Assembly (NCBI GenBank): GCA_009841635.1
Contig: VXLJ01000024.1
Span: 1 to 47,648 of the forward strand
Direction of reading: 5' to 3'
DNA length: 47,648 bases
DNA from: Gammaproteobacteria bacterium
GTDB lineage: Bacteria; Pseudomonadota; Gammaproteobacteria; Pseudomonadales; Azotimanducaceae
The notes under the pieces are model-generated. The model was not told the origin of the DNA, did no database searches, and saw nothing but the letters and a program-made list of their open reading frames with translations. Both the position numbers and the translations under genes were made by a program. Below, in pieces: positions 16,855 through 47,648 of the stretch (position 1 is its first letter; every line of letters begins with the position of its first letter).

Positions 16855-18615
16855 ATGACTCACGCATTCGAACAACTAAACGAATTTACGCGCGAATACG
16901 AAATTCCTATCGAACAAGACCAGTTTGACGAGCGTTTGCAAAACCTTACTAAAGACGTAGCGACTAAGGCTCATCTAAAGGGCTTTCGTAAAGGAAAAAC
17001 GCCACGTGGGCTCATAAAGCAACGATATGGCGCCGCGCTTCAGAACGACGTCATACAAGACATCGTCCAGGACAACTACAGCACACTGCTCAATGAAGCC
17101 GAATTAAAAGCGAGTTGGATCGGTAGACCGTATGTAGCGGATTTTGATGAGGACCGACCGAGCAGGGTAAAGCTGCGAGTTGAGACAGTACCGGAATTCG
17201 ACGCCGAAATTCTTGATGCTTTAACCGTCAAGCGCCCTATGGTTCAATTCACTGACGAGGCTATCGAAGCAGAGATTGATACGGCTCGAGAACGATGCAT
17301 CGATTGGTACGAACTAAAAGGTGACGGCATCGTTGCTCATGCGGGGGACCGGGTTTGGTTTACCTATGGAGCGGACGACGAGGAGACAACGGCAAGCCAC
17401 GACGAAACGACTGACGAGCAAGCGGTCGATGGCGAGCGTGAAATCGAGCCACCGCAATTGATGGTGGTGCTTCGCAATCCAAAAAACGAGATGGCGGCCG
17501 CACTTCACAACAAAATTCTCGGTAACGGCGTGCATGCGACATTCGACATCGAAGAAAGCGAAGTAGCCGCGGCAGGTGCGCAATTAGACTCGGATTCCAC
17601 TTCGCTGACCGCGCGGATTACCAAGATCGAACAGGGAGATCTCCCGCCTTTAAGCGAGCGGCTCTATGAAGACGCGAGCTTTCGTTATCTCTTGGCAAAG
17701 TATGAAGGAACGCCGCCACAATCCTTGGCGGAATTGAAAAAGGCCGTCATTCCCTCATTGGAGGCTTTGGTCACTGATTACACGCAAGCACACATAGAAC
17801 AACGAGTTTTAATGGAGCTTGCTAGTCGTTATGTACCAGCGATTCCGCGCGAGACAGTCCGCCAGGAATATGCAAATTTGCTTCGCCTTAGCGAACAGCA
17901 GACAGACCAGGCGTATGCCTATATGCGACTATTCGATGCGATCGTTGATGACGAACCGCTCACGACCGAGCTGTGGACTAAACGCCCAGCTTTCGAAGAA
18001 ATACCAGTAAAGATCAACCCGCCTGCAGGAGAGTCGTTTGAGCCTTTGCCGGAGATGCTTGTCAGTCAGGTTCGAGAACATGCGCGGAATGCCGTGCAAA
18101 ACGTCGCAGTTGGTTTGACCATGCGTGCGCTGGTCGATCATCTAGAACTCGAAGCGGATCAGGAAGCGATCGCCCAGGCGATTCAATCGCAAGTTAGGCT
18201 CTACGAGTCGTTTATGACACAAAGCGATCGCATGCAAGAAATGATGGACTATTTGTATAGCGAAGAGCACTACCAGCAGCAAGTGTCTAGCAACTTAGAA
18301 GAACAAGCACGTAAGCAATTGGTTGAGCGAGCGACCTACGAAGATGAGGAAGTTGCCTTAGCAGATGTCATTAATGGGACGAATGAGCTACCCATGAATT
18401 CGTTAACGACATTCACCGTGCTGCCTGGTTACCCTGTCCCGAAAGTACTTCAACCGAATGATGACAGTCCAACTGCAGCGAGCTCTGGCGATGCTGAAGA
18501 CGGTGCTTCTAAGGACAGTAATGAAGACCCGATCGTCGATGAGACGATTGCCGCGGAACCAGAGCAAAAATCCAGCTTTATAAGCAGACTTTTCCGTAAG
18601 AACAAAGATTCATAG
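16855..18615 (+). CDS. tig: Trigger factor with degenerate PPIase domain and long C-terminal tail
   Basis: Trigger factor binds the ribosome exit tunnel and shields nascent chains. 586 aa, far longer than the usual 430-450. The N-terminal ribosome-binding domain is clear: GFRKGKTPRGLI, with F44, R45 and K46 as in E. coli. Residues about 150-265 occupy the FKBP-type PPIase position (AGDRVWFTYGADD to ITKIEQGDLPPL), but the usual GSGxxIPGFE core is not recognisable and an acidic insert (about 172-198) interrupts it, so prolyl isomerase activity is doubtful. The helical C-terminal chaperone arms follow. The last 50 residues form an acidic linker ending in a basic SSFISRLFRKNKDS. clpP and clpX follow, as in most relatives. 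Confidence 0.9.
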   Translation: MTHAFEQLNEFTREYEIPIEQDQFDERLQNLTKDVATKAHLKGFRKGKTPRGLIKQRYGAALQNDVIQDIVQDNYSTLLNEAELKASWIGRPYVADFDEDRPSRVKLRVETVPEFDAEILDALTVKRPMVQFTDEAIEAEIDTARERCIDWYELKGDGIVAHAGDRVWFTYGADDEETTASHDETTDEQAVDGEREIEPPQLMVVLRNPKNEMAAALHNKILGNGVHATFDIEESEVAAAGAQLDSDSTSLTARITKIEQGDLPPLSERLYEDASFRYLLAKYEGTPPQSLAELKKAVIPSLEALVTDYTQAHIEQRVLMELASRYVPAIPRETVRQEYANLLRLSEQQTDQAYAYMRLFDAIVDDEPLTTELWTKRPAFEEIPVKINPPAGESFEPLPEMLVSQVREHARNAVQNVAVGLTMRALVDHLELEADQEAIAQAIQSQVRLYESFMTQSDRMQEMMDYLYSEEHYQQQVSSNLEEQARKQLVERATYEDEEVALADVINGTNELPMNSLTTFTVLPGYPVPKVLQPNDDSPTAASSGDAEDGASKDSNEDPIVDETIAAEPEQKSSFISRLFRKNKDS

Positions 18616-41042: not shown

Positions 41043-41744
41043 GTGGCGAGCGATTCAAGCAAGTTGATTGTGCAAGGGCATGAATTGTGTCGAACTTATG
41101 AGGTAGGCGACACAAGTGTTCGTGCTCTAGATCATGTGAACATTGAGATGCACGTTGGTGACTTCGTGGCCGTTATGGGCCCGTCTGGTAGTGGCAAGTC
41201 GACGCTTATGAACATCTTGGGATGCTTGGATCGCCCAGACAGTGGTGATTACCGCTTGCTTAATCGTCAAGTTGCGGCGTTGGACGACGAAAGTTTGTCG
41301 AGCATTCGCAATAGCCATTTGGGGTTTGTGTTTCAGAGCTTCCATTTGCTGCCGCGCATGACGGCCTTGGAAAATGTGCTCTTACCTATGCGTTTCGCAA
41401 AAACCGGACACGCTGGTAGTCGCGAATATGGCTGCGAACTGCTTTCTCGCCTTGGGCTAGGCGATCGCATGGATCATCGGCCAAACCAACTCTCGGGTGG
41501 GCAGCGGCAACGCGTAGGCATCGCACGAGCCTTGCTGTCTAAACCGACATTGCTATTGGCGGATGAACCGACAGGCAATTTGGATTCTAAAACGGCTTCG
41601 GAAATTCTCGATCTTCTGCTGGCTTTTAACCGGGAAGGGCAAACGATTCTGCTCGTGACTCACGAACACGAAATTGCGTCGCTCGCACATCGCATCATTC
41701 ATATGCGCGATGGGAAGATCGAACAAGAAGAAATGAACGCATGA
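41043..41744 (+). CDS. ABC transporter ATP-binding protein (MacB/LolD type)
   Basis: 233 aa. Walker A GPSGSGKST, the Q-loop in VFQSFHLLPRM, the ABC signature LSGGQRQRVGIARAL, Walker B LLLADEPTGNLDS and the switch His in VTHEHEIA are all present. The sequence belongs to the MacB/LolD/FtsE class, which drives mechanotransmission by four-segment permeases. Start GTG 41043 with AAGGAG at 41029-41034. It is the first gene of a six-gene operon; its stop overlaps the first adaptor (ATGA). The permease partner is five genes down, at 45204. Confidence 0.94.
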   Translation: MASDSSKLIVQGHELCRTYEVGDTSVRALDHVNIEMHVGDFVAVMGPSGSGKSTLMNILGCLDRPDSGDYRLLNRQVAALDDESLSSIRNSHLGFVFQSFHLLPRMTALENVLLPMRFAKTGHAGSREYGCELLSRLGLGDRMDHRPNQLSGGQRQRVGIARALLSKPTLLLADEPTGNLDSKTASEILDLLLAFNREGQTILLVTHEHEIASLAHRIIHMRDGKIEQEEMNA

Positions 41745-42685
41745 CGCGAATCTTGGTTAGCACATACGGCGTTTTTTTCGCACTGACAATGCAAGCAGCG
41801 CCGCCATATCTAACTGGCGTTGTCGCAGACGGCGAGTCACAACAAATCGAAATGCCGAGTTTAGCTACAGCGTGGATGCGCCAGGTTGAATGGCTCGCAC
41901 CAGAAGGTAGCTCGGTTCAAAAAGGCGAAGTGGTAGTACGCGTCGCGCCGGGAACATTAATCGAGCAGGCCGAAATCCGCGCGACCGCGCTTGAGGAGCA
42001 ACGCGTAACGACTGAACTCAATCGCGCTCAAGGCGAATTGGCGATTCTGGATGCTGAAATCGCAGTAAGCCAAGCGCAATCCATGCGTGATCTCGCTTGG
42101 TTGGATGCTCAGATTCCGGCCTCGGCAAACAATGAACTAAGTTTTGAAAAAGCGCAGTTGGCACTTGCCGACGCAGAAAATGCCCTTAGATTAGCTAACG
42201 CGACGCTCGCGAATGCCAAAGCGAAGCAAGAAGAGTTAGAACCTGTGCTGGCTATGCGCATCGCGCACAGTGAAGAGGAATTGCGCTTGGTGCAGGAGTC
42301 ATTAGCTCGCGTGGAAATTAGGGCGCAACAAGAAGGCATCATGGTCTATGGCGAAAACGAACGAACCGGCAACAAGATATTTCCAGGTGAAACCATGATG
42401 CCTGGTGATTTGATCGCAACCATTGCAACGCACGCTCAACTGTTGTTTGTCTTTTGGGCACATGACGCCGACATCATGCATATTCGACCAGGCAAACGAT
42501 TAGCGGTGGTCGCAGACGCATTGCCAGAAATAACTGTTGAAGCAGAAATCACCCTAGTCTCAGATTACGCTAGCTCGCGCTCAAATTGGAGCCAAGGTGG
42601 CTATTTCAAGGTACAAGCAAAACCAGTTCAGCAACTTCCGCGCGAGTTTTTACCTGGTATGGCCGTTTTTGCTCAGGCGTATTGA
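41741..42685 (+). CDS. Periplasmic adaptor (HlyD-type) 1 of the ABC exporter
   Basis: 314 aa. A signal peptide is likely (ILVSTYGVFFALTMQAAPPY). The first half of a lipoyl-like domain (VEWLAPEGSSVQKGEVVVRV) leads into a long helical hairpin, about residues 75-195, rich in A, E and Q. The second lipoyl half (IRAQQEGIMVYGENERTGNK) and a beta-barrel domain (LLFVFWAHDADI to REFLPGMAVFAQ) follow. It is shorter than usual adaptors and seems to lack a C-terminal membrane-proximal domain. It overlaps the ATPase gene (ATGA), and the next adaptor starts 4 bases after its stop. Confidence 0.85.
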   Translation: MTRILVSTYGVFFALTMQAAPPYLTGVVADGESQQIEMPSLATAWMRQVEWLAPEGSSVQKGEVVVRVAPGTLIEQAEIRATALEEQRVTTELNRAQGELAILDAEIAVSQAQSMRDLAWLDAQIPASANNELSFEKAQLALADAENALRLANATLANAKAKQEELEPVLAMRIAHSEEELRLVQESLARVEIRAQQEGIMVYGENERTGNKIFPGETMMPGDLIATIATHAQLLFVFWAHDADIMHIRPGKRLAVVADALPEITVEAEITLVSDYASSRSNWSQGGYFKVQAKPVQQLPREFLPGMAVFAQAY

Positions 42686-42689
42686 CTTG

Positions 42690-43832
42690 ATGAGCCATCG
42701 TGTTCGATTACTGCTGATCCTGGGTGCCTTGGCAGGTTCACTCCAAGCTGAATGGCTTGAAGTGAATTCCGCGAACCAACCTGTGACGATTGAGACGACT
42801 GGGATCGTTACGTCGAAAAACACGACGAGATTCAGTCCGCCACCAAGTTTTTACTGGAATTTAACGATTGCTGAAATTGTCCAAGAAGGACAGCGTGTCG
42901 GTGTTGGCGATGTCATTGCGCGGTTTGAGAGCACCCAAGAGAGCACTCGACTGACTCAAATTCAGGAGCAGTTGAATGTCGCCCAAGGAGAGTTGACCTC
43001 CCTGACGGAACAACACAATCAGGAAATTGAAACCGAAAAACTGATATTGGCGGAAGCTGAGAGCAACGCTGAAAAAGCGCGGCGCAAAGCAAACCAGCCG
43101 ATCGACCTCGTACCGAGCATTGAATACAAGAAACTCGTTAAACAACGTGAACTTGCAGAGCAAATGGTTGAGCATCATGCACGCCGGGCGGAAATCAGTG
43201 CCAAGATACGAGAAACGAATTCACGACGATTGCGTCTTCATGTGCAACGTAAACAGAACGAACTTCACAGCATCCAGCAAGCGTTGGCTCGATTTACGAT
43301 TCGGTCGCCACGTGAAGGTATCGCAGTAGTTGGCACGAACTACAACGGCGAGAAGTACGATGTTGGTTCGACCACGCAGCCGCATAACGTGATCGCAGAG
43401 CTAGTTGACCAAACTGCGCTTGAGATCAGTAGCACCGTTCGTGAACAGTATTCGGCGCAACTACAGCTGAATCAGCCTGTGCGCATGGTTGCCGAGTCCT
43501 TGGGCGGATTGAAACTTACCGGTCGCGTATCTGAGTTAGGCAAATCTGTGCGTCGCAAATCCCGCTTTTCGTCCGATATGGTGCGAGAGTTCAAAGTGGA
43601 ACTCGATTCGCAACCTGAGATATTGAAACTCGGCACTTCCACCAAGACGACGGTCGAGGTACGACGCCGACCTAGTTCAATCGCTGTGCCTAGAAGTGCG
43701 ATCCAGTATCGTGAAGGATTTCCTGGCGTCGTCACGCAGGACGGCTGGGCCAAAGTCAGCCTCGGGGAGCGAAGCGACGACAAAATCATCGTTGTAGAAG
43801 GTCTTAGCGACGGCGATTCGATCAGCATATGA
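42690..43832 (+). CDS. Periplasmic adaptor (HlyD-type) 2 of the ABC exporter
   Basis: 380 aa from ATG 42690; the open frame extends back into the first adaptor gene, but only as a shadow. Signal peptide: SHRVRLLLILGALAGSLQAE. The lipoyl-like half (LTIAEIVQEGQRVGVGDVIA) is followed by a very long coiled coil, about residues 80-195, with an interrupting KANQPIDLVPSIEYK, then RFTIRSPREGIAVVGTNYNG, a beta-barrel, and a membrane-proximal domain ending SDGDSISI. It is distinct in sequence from the first adaptor. The stop overlaps the third adaptor (ATGA). Confidence 0.85.
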   Translation: MSHRVRLLLILGALAGSLQAEWLEVNSANQPVTIETTGIVTSKNTTRFSPPPSFYWNLTIAEIVQEGQRVGVGDVIARFESTQESTRLTQIQEQLNVAQGELTSLTEQHNQEIETEKLILAEAESNAEKARRKANQPIDLVPSIEYKKLVKQRELAEQMVEHHARRAEISAKIRETNSRRLRLHVQRKQNELHSIQQALARFTIRSPREGIAVVGTNYNGEKYDVGSTTQPHNVIAELVDQTALEISSTVREQYSAQLQLNQPVRMVAESLGGLKLTGRVSELGKSVRRKSRFSSDMVREFKVELDSQPEILKLGTSTKTTVEVRRRPSSIAVPRSAIQYREGFPGVVTQDGWAKVSLGERSDDKIIVVEGLSDGDSISI

Positions 43833-45028
43833 GACGACTAATTCAACCTTTGGCATTGCTGGTGTTGCTCACGGGCTGTACACAGGGAATCGATAAGAGT
43901 ATCGCGGTAGAAGCCGTAGTCGATGATCACGTATTTGAGTTGCAGGCACGAGGCGACATCGTGTCGTCCGAATCCATTTCAATCAATGTGCCGCGCAATG
44001 TGAATATGCGCATGAACATCGCCTGGATTTTGCCTGAATTTTCGAATGTTTCAAAGGGCGACGTGGTGGCACGCTTTGAAATTCGCGAAATCATGTCCCA
44101 ACGCAGCAATGCCATGGTCCAAATTGCGAATCAATCATTGGCGATTCACAACCATGAAATGGACAGTGTGACTGAACAAACAGGTATCACCCATCAAAGT
44201 GAGCGTGTTGCAGGCGAGACAGTAGTCGCGCAAACGTTCGCGGATTTCGATCCGCGTTATTTCAGCCGAATCGAGATCATCGATGCGATTGGCGATTTGA
44301 ACTATTTGGGTGTAGAAGCTACGTATTACGATTGGCGAGCAAACACTCATGAACAACGTACGGTAGCAGAAACAGCGCACATTCAAGCACAACGAGCAGG
44401 GGCACAGCAGTCGCTCTCACGCCAAGATCAGGCGTTAGAAGCAGCGGAAGTACGAAGTCCGGCCGATGGGACATTCGTTTATGGTCAGTCGCCATGGGGT
44501 GAAAAAGTTCGCCGGGGTATGACGGTGTTTCCAGGTAGCACGGTTGGCAAATTACCAGTTAGCGACCGTTATGAAGCTCGCATTTTCGTGCCGGAGACTG
44601 ATGCGGTTGGTTTAGCTGCTTCGCAATTGATAAAAATGCGAATGGACGCGAATGCTTCAGAGGAGCTAGACGCAACCATTACTAGTGTCGCACCGATAGC
44701 GTCTGCCCGCAGTAGGACTGACCTGCGTCGCTTTGTGACTGTCACGGCCGCACTTGCTGATTCAAGCCATGAATCGATTCGGGTTGGCAGTGCCTTATCC
44801 GCGACGATCGTTACGGCCGAACTTGCAGATGCGATCGTGCTGCCGCAACAAGCCATATTCACTGAGAACCAAAAATCGCTCGTCTATGTGCTTGACGGGA
44901 GCGATGTTGAATCGCGCGTCGTTGAATTAGGCGAACGCAGCTCAACATTGGTTGAAATCGTGAACGGCTTGGCACCAGGCGAGTGGGTTAGTTTGATTGA
45001 ACCAGAACTTGCGGCTTCCGATGCCTAA
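43829..45028 (+). CDS. Periplasmic adaptor (HlyD/RND MFP-type) 3, predicted lipoprotein
   Basis: 399 aa. The N-terminus MRRLIQPLALLVLLTGC is a lipoprotein signal with lipobox LLTGC, so Cys17 should be acylated. The lipoyl half (NIAWILPEFSNVSKGDVVAR) leads to a helical region (about 85-195) and a second half (VRSPADGTFVYGQSPWGEKV). Beta-barrel (YEARIFVPETDAVG) and membrane-proximal (VLPQQAIFTENQKSLVYVLD) domains follow, the latter typical of RND/MacA adaptors. The stop TAA overlaps the ATG of a 59-codon gene by one base (TAATG). It is the third adaptor in a row, with little identity to the first two. Confidence 0.86.
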   Translation: MRRLIQPLALLVLLTGCTQGIDKSIAVEAVVDDHVFELQARGDIVSSESISINVPRNVNMRMNIAWILPEFSNVSKGDVVARFEIREIMSQRSNAMVQIANQSLAIHNHEMDSVTEQTGITHQSERVAGETVVAQTFADFDPRYFSRIEIIDAIGDLNYLGVEATYYDWRANTHEQRTVAETAHIQAQRAGAQQSLSRQDQALEAAEVRSPADGTFVYGQSPWGEKVRRGMTVFPGSTVGKLPVSDRYEARIFVPETDAVGLAASQLIKMRMDANASEELDATITSVAPIASARSRTDLRRFVTVTAALADSSHESIRVGSALSATIVTAELADAIVLPQQAIFTENQKSLVYVLDGSDVESRVVELGERSSTLVEIVNGLAPGEWVSLIEPELAASDA

Positions 45029-45207
45029 TGAGCTTTTTAGGATCCCTGCAGCAAAGCGATTTAGCTCCTTTAAATAAACTGATTCGCGTAAGCGAGGCTC
45101 TATTGCAGATGGGTACTAACGTCGAGTGCGCGATCGCTATGTCCTATAACGTTCTCCGCAAGTTTGCAGTTGAAGGTTACCCAAGCTGGTTTCGAAAGCT
45201 TAGGTGA
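45028..45207 (+). CDS. 59-aa protein of unknown function inside the exporter operon
   Basis: A complete frame from ATG 45028 to TGA 45205-45207. Its ATG shares the last base of the third adaptor stop (TAATG), and its stop overlaps the GTG of the permease (GTGA), so it is tiled into the operon on both sides. The peptide is helical in pattern, with a short start (MSFLGSLQQSD), an amphipathic middle (APLNKLIRVSEALLQMGTNV) and a basic aromatic end (EGYPSWFRKLR). It has one Cys, no signal peptide and no double-Gly leader. I do not recognise it. It may be a small subunit or regulator, a peptide cargo, or only a translational bridge to the permease gene. Confidence 0.6.
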   Translation: MSFLGSLQQSDLAPLNKLIRVSEALLQMGTNVECAIAMSYNVLRKFAVEGYPSWFRKLR

Positions 45208-46460
45208 ACTTACCAAGCTTGCTTCAATCCCTCGTTCCTGACTTTCGCCAAGCGCTAAGTCAGCTTTCACACCACAAGCTACGTTCGGCCTTGACTCTTC
45301 TGGGTATGGTTTTTGGGGTAGCAGCCGTGATTGCGATGCTCGCTGTAAGCGAAGGCGGTCGTCGAGAAGCCTTACAGCTCGTAGAAGGCATGGGTGTTCG
45401 AAATCTCATAGTTGAAGCAGATGAGGGAAGTGGTGATCAGTTGCGTGAATTGCGCCAACACTCGCCTGGCTTATCTCTCAATGATGCAACGGCAGTCGCG
45501 GCGACCTTGCCATTTGTCGCTGAATGGGCGGGAGTGCGTGGTGTTCACGCATGGAGTTTGATTTCACATGAAGGTAACAGTGAGGCCGATGTTGTAGGCG
45601 TGAGTCCAAGTTACTTCAAGCTGTCGGGTTTGGAAGTCGCAAGAGGTGAACTTTATGACGCGGAAGATGACCGGCAGTTTGCACAACAAGCCGTTTTGGG
45701 TAGCACGGTGGCGCGGCAATTATTTCCAAATGGCGATGCGATTGGAAAACCTATAAAAATCAATCATTTATGGTTAGAAGTTATAGGTATTTTGCGGGAT
45801 AGCCAAATAGCGGAAGAAGAATTTCAAGGCGAGCAGATCGGAGGTGACAGTGAAAGGGTGTACATGCCACTTCAAACCACACTGAAGCGAATGAATGTAC
45901 CTCAAGACCAGGCTGAATTGTCCGCACTAAAAATTCAAATGACCCCCGACGTACTTCCAGGCGATGCCGCCAAGGCGATCGAGCACCTGCTTATACGGCG
46001 TCATGGTGGGCAACATGACATTCGGATGATTGTGCCAGCGAGGTTACTAGCGCAGCAACGTCAAACGGAGCGCATTTTTACGATCGTCATGTCTGCAGTG
46101 GCAGGCATTTCGTTATTAGTTGGCGGCATCGGCATCATGAACATCATGCTGGCGAGCGTACTAGAGCGTAAATCGGAGATCGGCTTGCTACGCGCCATTG
46201 GCGCGACTCAGATGGATGTTGTTCGCCAGTTTATCATCGAGACCACCGTGATCGCATTGACGGGTGCACTTGCTGGGGTATTCCTCGGTGTTGCAATCGC
46301 TTATGTGATCGCAGCTTCTGCAGGATGGGCGGTAGCATGGTCATTTTTGACCATCTTTTTGGCGGTCGTTGTTTGCGTCGCCATCGCGGTGGGGTTTGGT
46401 GTATATCCATCTCTATCGGCCGCGAAATTGGATCCAGTTGAAGCACTACAGTCCGAATAG
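45204..46460 (+). CDS. ABC transporter permease (MacB/FtsX type)
   Basis: 418 aa with the four-segment MacB layout: membrane segment 1 at about 27-48 (LRSALTLLGMVFGVAAVIAM), a large periplasmic domain (about 50-285), segment 2 (about 292-318), segment 3 (about 345-372) and segment 4 (about 376-402). The MacB-type signatures VGGIGIMNIMLASVLERKSE then IGLLRAIGATQMDV and the C-terminal YPSLSAAKLDPVEALQSE are clear. GTG 45204 overlaps the stop of the 59-aa gene. With the ATPase at 41043 it forms an inner-membrane exporter. No TolC-like gene is in the window. Confidence 0.93.
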   Translation: MNLPSLLQSLVPDFRQALSQLSHHKLRSALTLLGMVFGVAAVIAMLAVSEGGRREALQLVEGMGVRNLIVEADEGSGDQLRELRQHSPGLSLNDATAVAATLPFVAEWAGVRGVHAWSLISHEGNSEADVVGVSPSYFKLSGLEVARGELYDAEDDRQFAQQAVLGSTVARQLFPNGDAIGKPIKINHLWLEVIGILRDSQIAEEEFQGEQIGGDSERVYMPLQTTLKRMNVPQDQAELSALKIQMTPDVLPGDAAKAIEHLLIRRHGGQHDIRMIVPARLLAQQRQTERIFTIVMSAVAGISLLVGGIGIMNIMLASVLERKSEIGLLRAIGATQMDVVRQFIIETTVIALTGALAGVFLGVAIAYVIAASAGWAVAWSFLTIFLAVVVCVAIAVGFGVYPSLSAAKLDPVEALQSE

Positions 46461-46494: not shown

Positions 46495-47648
46495 TTATAA
46501 AGAAGGCTTGACATCGCCACTGAATTCGCAAATTTCTCGCTTAATTTCGGACAATTCACCGCTCACCCATTCGTGCTTGTTATCAAATTCCTCGTGAATG
46601 TGCTTTTCGGTTTCTCGGAACAGGTGCGTCTCGTGGCTGAATTCCAGCTTATAGGCGCGGTCGGGATCAGATGTTTGATAGGCGTTTAACCTCGCCTTCA
46701 CGTTCTTGGCAATGCCAACCTTGTATTCACCCGGATAGTTCGGGTGGGAGATGATGTAGACGTGCTTGGTCTCACCCAGTGATTCACCTAACCGAACTGG
46801 CAGTTTGGTCGTCAGGTGGACTTCCTCACCAAACAGTTCGTCGGGTCGAGCGACTTCCTTGTCCAATCGCTCTCGCACGAGATCGTATGCTTTGTGGCTG
46901 ACATCGATCCCGATCCATTGTCGCTCCAACCGCTCGGCTGCAATGCAGGTTGTGGCACATCCACAAAACGGATCCAGCACGATGTCCCCCTCGTTGCTAC
47001 TCGCTTTGATAATGCGTTCGAGTAGAGCTAGAGGCTTTTGTGTAGGGTAGCCTGTGGCTTCCGTGTTCTTTCGCGCTGGATTGATGTCGCCCCAGACATT
47101 GCCGTATCGCGTGCCGTGATAAGTATCGGCGAACGTTTTCCGTAAGGGTCTATCTGAACCCCGCCAAATGATCTCTCCGCGATTGTCCATCTCCTCTAAC
47201 CGCGCGCGCGATATACGCCACCCACTCGGGTGAGGGTTGCGCCACCCGTTATATTCGTAACACAGATTAGGTCGTGCCCCCATGCTTTTGGAACGCCACA
47301 ACGGTGTTAGTGTGTTGTACCGACGACCGTTCTTGTCGATTTTTGGAAACTTCCGTTCGAGTTCTTCGGTCGTTAAAGCTCGATTAGCGTCCAACTTACT
47401 TGCAGACGACACAGAGTAAAACAAGATTGAGTCACTGTTAGAACCGAAGGTGCGTGAGGCATGCTGACTTCCCTTTCCGACACTCTTGGTGCGTTCCCAA
47501 ACAATCTCATTCCGAAACTGGTCTTCGCCGAATATGCAATCCATCGTTGTTTTGAGATAGTGGCTCATCGTTGGATCGCAGTGCAGGTAAATTGAGCCAG
47601 TCGGTTTGAGGACTCGCTGGCACTCGATTAGTCGTATCGCCATGTAAG
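46495..47648 (-). CDS. DNA methyltransferase fused to a GIY-YIG-like domain (5' end beyond window)
   Basis: At least 383 codons; the frame remains open across the window edge, so the Met near 47643 is not the true start. The visible part begins inside a beta-class N4/N6 amino-methyltransferase: RLIECQRVLKPTGSIYLHCD, then YPTQKPLALLERIIKAS and the SAM motif LDPFCGCATTCIAAERLERQ with WIGIDVS. The catalytic motif IV ([DNS]PPY-type) should lie upstream. Residues about 294-382 form a T5orf172/GIY-YIG-like domain: VYIISHPNYPGEYKVGIAKN, Arg318 and FRETEKHIHEEF with a possible metal Glu, then EWVSG. It is convergent with the exporter operon. Confidence 0.85.
   Translation of the reverse strand, partial: YMAIRLIECQRVLKPTGSIYLHCDPTMSHYLKTTMDCIFGEDQFRNEIVWERTKSVGKGSQHASRTFGSNSDSILFYSVSSASKLDANRALTTEELERKFPKIDKNGRRYNTLTPLWRSKSMGARPNLCYEYNGWRNPHPSGWRISRARLEEMDNRGEIIWRGSDRPLRKTFADTYHGTRYGNVWGDINPARKNTEATGYPTQKPLALLERIIKASSNEGDIVLDPFCGCATTCIAAERLERQWIGIDVSHKAYDLVRERLDKEVARPDELFGEEVHLTTKLPVRLGESLGETKHVYIISHPNYPGEYKVGIAKNVKARLNAYQTSDPDRAYKLEFSHETHLFRETEKHIHEEFDNKHEWVSGELSEIKREICEFSGDVKPSL

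Follow-up and report, generated by a model that had tools for sequence, protein, structure and literature searches.

A conserved MacB-type exporter operon with three adaptor genes in Gammaproteobacteria, and a possible mixed adaptor ring

Why should the operon of a single MacB-type exporter carry three adaptor genes, and could their products act together? The question is raised by contig VXLJ01000024.1 of a gammaproteobacterial draft genome (assembly GCA_009841635.1; 2.9 Mb in 53 contigs), which in its whole length of 47,648 nucleotides is called the window below. Five genes, all on the + strand, encode an ATP-binding cassette (ABC) ATPase, three adaptors, here named A1, A2 and A3, and a permease (Table 1). 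An earlier note, made from the letters of this DNA, had described three HlyD/MFP adaptors between ATPase and permease; the coordinates and the Pfam and NCBIfam scores agree, and what they show is a MacB-type operon in a three-adaptor variant that is conserved.

The operon and its relatives

The ATPase translation contains GPSGSGKS (Walker A), LSGGQ (signature) and DEPTGNLD (Walker B), and its best NCBIfam matches are MacB, LolD and DarD, each under its own cut-off. In Pfam, the permease matches MacB_PCD (125.7 bits, 3.9e-36, cut-off 27) and FtsX (70.5 bits, 1.6e-19, cut-off 25.5), and among solved structures it matches MacB (PDB 5gko, 2e-80). The RND_mfp profile gives 77 bits for A2, under its cut-off of 94.9, with MacA matches in the PDB, and HlyD_3 is just below its cut-off in A3 (20.9 of 22.2 bits). 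A1, the adaptor for which a structure was modelled with AlphaFold2 (mean predicted local distance difference test, pLDDT, 88.9; predicted template modelling score, pTM, 0.62), is predicted to consist of a signal peptide, a lipoyl domain, hairpin helices at residues 73-123 and 132-189, and a barrel; the solved folds closest to the model are EmrA and MacA. This layout, with lipoyl halves around a helical hairpin plus a barrel, and the Pfam and NCBIfam scores of A1-A3 place the adaptors in the HlyD/MFP family. The genes are tightly packed: ATPase and A1 overlap by 4 bases, a 4-base gap separates A1 from A2, and A2 and A3 again overlap by 4 bases, with the spacer following between A3 and the permease.

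Table 1. Parts of the three-adaptor operon in the window
Feature	Positions	Strand	Properties
ATPase subunit, MacB/LolD-type ABC exporter	41043..41744	+	233 aa; PF00005 1.1e-30
Adaptor A1	41741..42685	+	314 aa; HlyD_3 and HlyD_D23 above cut-off
Adaptor A2	42690..43832	+	380 aa; HlyD_3 above cut-off
Adaptor A3	43829..45028	+	399 aa; RND_mfp 97.0 bits, cut-off 94.9
Spacer, 175 bases	45029..45203	+	contains a 59-aa frame, most likely no gene
MacB-type permease, gene separate from ATPase	45204..46460	+	418 aa; MacB_PCD and FtsX

The order ATPase-A1-A2-A3-permease was found in 52 operons in 52 gammaproteobacterial genomes, some of them cut by contig ends, and the ATPase is the first gene in every complete operon. 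Given this recurrence, the order is beyond chance; the earlier note had proposed co-conservation of the adaptors as a check, and its loss is excluded. Among the own genome and 57 relatives, A1 was matched in 19 of 58 genomes with E no higher than 1e-20, namely the own genome, 16 of the 17 others of the genus, one of another genus in the same family (G023) and one of another family (G045); the genus member that lacks A1 (G001) is 78% complete. All 18 relative regions that were fetched carry ATPase-A1-A2-A3, and the permease comes next wherever the contig extends. In G004 the contig ends before it, in G009 it is cut, and in G016 and G002 it is divided into two open reading frames (ORFs). These divided permeases (L085:1798-3068 and L083:10244-11481) reflect either a sequence error or a real loss.

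Wider sampling showed a distribution that is wide but patchy. A1 was matched in 16 of 293 genomes of the order sample at E 1e-15, with twelve true operons and four weak matches of other adaptors, and, at E 1e-20, in 1 of 369 genomes of the class sample (the own genome) and 10 of 398 of the phylum sample, the own genome included. The gene order is kept in the 15 of 15 regions fetched from these samples, two of which have A1 and A2 as one ORF. Named genomes yielded 36 loci, comprising 33 with three adaptors in order (17 of them contigs already present in the relative-genome set), one cut within A1 (L120) and two from Wallbacteria that differ (see below). Every named relative in which A1 turned up is a metagenome-assembled genome, and 33 of the 36 are labelled Gammaproteobacteria. 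Two complete (closed) Pseudoalteromonas replicons carry the operon. Its spread covers ten families and, among named genomes, Pseudomonadales, Woeseiales, Lysobacterales and Alteromonadales.

More than one adaptor ORF was found in none of the 26 other MacB-type loci of the own genome and its relatives, a count made with newly made profiles that divergent adaptors may escape, and in which some single adaptor ORFs are long enough for two modules. Such is the case of L162:6886-8973 (G080), where the adaptor ORF next to a MacB-type ATPase and permease measures 695 aa, has profile matches in two separate parts and is possibly a two-module adaptor. Other MacB-type loci with all three genes have the order adaptor-ATPase-permease, L167 excepted, whereas here the adaptors stand between ATPase and permease. 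L216 (G023:C64) has one adaptor and, in a row, several ORFs of ~670 aa that score as MacB-type ATPases.

Scores for described systems stayed below the NCBIfam cut-offs. For the MacB equivalog, whose model describes the fused protein, the ATPase reaches 248.7 and the permease 198.3 of 966 bits, and for the MacA equivalog A3 reaches 18.5 of 342. The corresponding values are 231.8 of 307.75 (LolD) and 46.6 of 362.45 (lolCE) for LolCDE, 201.2 of 264.85 (FtsE) and 15.4 of 255 (FtsX) for FtsEX, and 227.2 of 375 (DarD) and 23.3 of 450 (DarC) for the darobactin exporter. The operon shares with MacA-MacB-TolC the MacB-type permease fold and adaptors of MacA/HlyD type; unlike it, MacA-MacB-TolC has one adaptor gene, an ATPase that in E. 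coli is fused to the permease, and a MacA hairpin spacing of 106 vs 137 here. VarABCDEF of Vibrio cholerae is likewise of MacB type with a separate ATPase, and has one adaptor plus a 40-aa adaptor remnant, varB (PMC5595328); it differs in having one complete adaptor only, two permeases and its own outer-membrane channel. The earlier note knew of no described three-adaptor MacB system, and none came up in the open-access passages and listings searched, which does not show that one is absent from print. A match on three membrane fusion proteins concerns metal pumps of the resistance-nodulation-division (RND) type (PMC8963506).

Three divergent adaptors with one hairpin length

The earlier note's statement that the adaptors differ in anchoring and in the membrane-proximal domain holds. 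The N-termini of A1 and A2 are signal-peptide-like and that of A3 has the lipobox LTGC; A1 is without the C-terminal membrane-proximal part, which A2 and A3 have. None of the 48 complete single A1 ORFs has the membrane-proximal tail, and A3 has both the tail and a cysteine at the lipobox position in 50 of 50 operons. Pairwise identity among the window's three adaptors is 26-28% and all are intact, so they are not the degenerate copies that the note had allowed for.

The same note had also described different hairpin lengths, which is not what we observed. The spacing between the lipoyl glycines is 137 residues in all three window adaptors (A1 G62-G199, A2 G73-G210, A3 G77-G214) and in 144 of 151 adaptors of the operon set: in 50 of 51 A1 (one has 136), 50 of 50 A2 and 44 of 50 A3 (six have 138). 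The Pseudoalteromonas adaptors show it in 6 of 6. Among the controls, E. coli MacA and six MacA-like adaptors have 106, AcrA 92 and EmrA 138, and two other MacB-linked adaptors of the own genome have 143 and 120. Control adaptors overall range from 73 to 388, with several rows being the same protein twice and with the extremes unsure, as the alignments of L061 and L064 disagree between two references. A single hairpin length in three far-diverged paralogs fits hairpins that would end flush in one tube.

A quick maximum-likelihood tree was built with 87 adaptors taken from 29 operons and with seven others added, two of the latter on long branches. In it A1, A2 and A3 each form one clade (SH-aLRT, an approximate likelihood-ratio test, 99, 94 and 98), with matching subgroups within each. 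Three clades with the same subgroups indicate that, by the evidence of these sequences, the triplication is older than the spread of the operon and that the adaptor set has been inherited together.

Two of the relatives carry A1-A2 fusions of two modules each, with 682 aa (G942) and 629 aa (G865), followed by a separate A3, which suggests that A1 and A2 are neighbours. A solved parallel is PDB entry 6vej, a TriA-TriB fusion, in which a 695-residue chain carries two adaptor names. A published one is the double adaptor DSY0927 of Desulfitobacterium hafniense, an ABC-linked adaptor of two different units (PMC4338810), which differs in that it belongs to a Gram-positive organism and that one half is said to be without coiled coil; the passage cited does not mention a third adaptor.

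The two Wallbacteria loci (L123:752-8355 and L124:9770-17376) hold in a row a fused double adaptor (939 aa), an ATPase, a permease, a TolC-type protein and a third adaptor (471 aa). The spacing is 208 in all three adaptor modules on both contigs. This spacing is also found in L087, a single-adaptor locus of the taxonomic order sampled, and thus occurs more widely. Three modules with one spacing, together with an ATPase and a permease, appear to support a mixed adaptor ring.

Arrangement of the adaptors

We consider it probable that the operon encodes one MacB-type exporter with an adaptor ring mixed from all three adaptors, a ring that we infer, as we do the 2:2:2 count discussed below, the docking on TolC, the direction of transport and the substrate. 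The heteromeric ring with divided roles suggested by the earlier note gains indirect support from the presence of one of each adaptor per operon, their fixed order, the clades, the hairpin length, the fusions and the constant domain differences.

MacB is dimeric (PMC8277102) and MacA hexameric (PMC8277102, PMC4338810). A two-fold permease dimer and a ring of six therefore make three non-equivalent positions, two of each. A likeness in symmetry only is offered by MlaFEDB, where a periplasmic ring of six sits on a two-fold ABC core and touches it in three non-equivalent ways (PMC7790496); it is unlike the present system in its ring of identical MCE proteins, its transport of phospholipids and the lack of homology with the adaptors. 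Tentatively, and with less confidence than for the mixed ring as such, we propose that gene triplication may have resolved the symmetry mismatch of MacB by an ordered 2:2:2 hetero-hexamer, with each adaptor specialised for one of the three positions over the two-fold permease and Wallbacteria, with its spacing of 208, as a parallel case. Three different adaptors would then replace six copies of one, in the simplest arrangement with A1, A2 and A3 each present twice and always in one order, one adaptor per non-equivalent position. A3, lipidated, always with a membrane-proximal domain and encoded by the gene that adjoins the permease gene, would be the likely anchor to membrane and permease; A1, never with that domain, would complete the ring with A2 next to it. 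The equal hairpins would form a flush tube docking on a TolC-type channel whose gene lies in another part of the genome; the own genome encodes three TolC-family proteins outside the operon. In ordinary pumps the six adaptors have one sequence, so that no single ring position can be changed by itself. A gene for each ring position, if true, would make each position separately deletable, taggable and changeable, and the common hairpin length in adaptors only 26-28% alike would be a length rule open to test by altering one adaptor each time.

Several points weigh against this arrangement. The membrane-proximal tail of A2 is missing in 12 of 50 relatives, and so adaptor roles may differ between lineages. 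The gammaproteobacterial operons mapped contain no TolC gene. Adaptor hairpin tips dock through the RLS motif, which in its full form was not seen at the tips of these adaptors. The adaptor tree is a quick one and covers 29 of 50 operons. The equal hairpin length may be explained partly by shared descent, because the MacA type likewise holds one length, 106, and EmrA has 138. Finally, co-evolution of distances is unspecific: mirror-tree correlation over 46 loci, leaving out four (in three the permease is cut or split, in one A1 is cut), is 0.91-0.98 for every gene pair, and was rejected as proof of contact.

Of the other explanations, the best placed, though unlikely, is that two of the adaptors form a ring of alternating pairs, a trimer of dimers as proposed for TriA-TriB, with the third serving, for instance, in substrate capture or regulation. 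Its precedent is TriABC-OpmH of Pseudomonas aeruginosa, in which a transporter has more than one adaptor and both are required (PMC4338810, PMC13328181), and it is favoured by A1 and A2 being the pair that fuses and by A1 always being without membrane-proximal domain. TriABC-OpmH has, however, a three-fold RND transporter and two adaptors, as opposed to a MacB-type transporter and three here. A two-fold permease calls for no three-fold arrangement, and a full hairpin of equal length, which all three adaptors have, would be needless in a protein outside the ring.

It is more improbable that the adaptors are alternatives, each forming a homo-hexamer on the common permease and widening the range of substrates or channels. 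RND pump adaptors can serve several pumps (PMC6975555), and the hairpin tips do differ among A1, A2 and A3; but every complete operon has one of each in fixed order, A1-A2 fusions exist, and A1 is without the membrane-proximal domain. We give marginally less credit still to a system that is no trans-envelope exporter, where the permease would pass force to periplasmic partners, as in FtsEX and LolCDE, and the adaptors would stop short of a TolC-type channel. The wider MacB/FtsX family has such members (PMC8277102) and the mapped operons are without a TolC gene, as this would have it, while three long-hairpin adaptors, the TolC-family proteins of the own genome and the TolC-type protein in the Wallbacteria arrangement speak against it. 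Lastly, one contig of a 53-contig draft genome might be suspected of holding an assembly artefact, or copies that are decaying after a recent tandem duplication; this is already contradicted by the same operon in the two complete Pseudoalteromonas replicons and by three deep clades of copies that are 26-28% identical yet intact.

Spacer, substrate and other observations

The earlier note had included a small ORF (45028-45207, 59 aa) in the gene order whose conservation it proposed to check. No similar frame is present in the spacers (121-124 bases) of the four closest relatives, and blastp gave no match among the ORFs of 20 fetched regions; in other loci A3 and the permease either overlap or are separated by at most 55 bases. 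The small ORF was thus rejected as a precursor or accessory gene, since it is not conserved.

The peptide or lipid-like substrate of the earlier note is unsupported by the surroundings of the operon, as no gene beyond the five accompanies it across 48 loci: when their ORFs were grouped by clustering, the most widespread group outside the five-gene system covered 8 loci. The ten neighbours scanned were FtsK, MgsA, BipA, two TonB receptors, an acyl-CoA dehydrogenase, a TldD/PmbA-type protein, a sigma-54 activator, a TPR/cytochrome c7 protein and PhyH. MacB-family pumps reportedly draw their substrates from the periplasm (PMC8277102), and the substrates named for MacB-type systems are macrolides, lipopolysaccharide, porphyrins and peptides (PMC5595328). 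Because of these two points we would guess, doubtful as it is, at a peptide or small amphiphile that is picked up in the periplasm.

Three TldD/PmbA-type proteins, one of which was profile-scanned, lie in a row upstream of the exporter in six genomes (L075, L078, L079, L080, L081 and L083), all from a single genus. Within the window, an ORF of 586 aa (16855-18615) has in Pfam the trigger factor N-terminal domain (1-143) only; trigger factors are usually shorter than this. Another contig of the same genome, C51 (L163, G000:C51), begins with a permease end that matches the window's in 34 of 34 residues, the DNA being slightly different, and continues, as judged by eye, with ftsK, lolA, mgsA, crcB, serS and cysG-like genes, as in the relatives L069 and L070. 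In place of these genes the window has, at 46495-47643, a DNA methyltransferase with a T5orf172 domain, and the two contigs look like two strain variants, one of them with an insertion.

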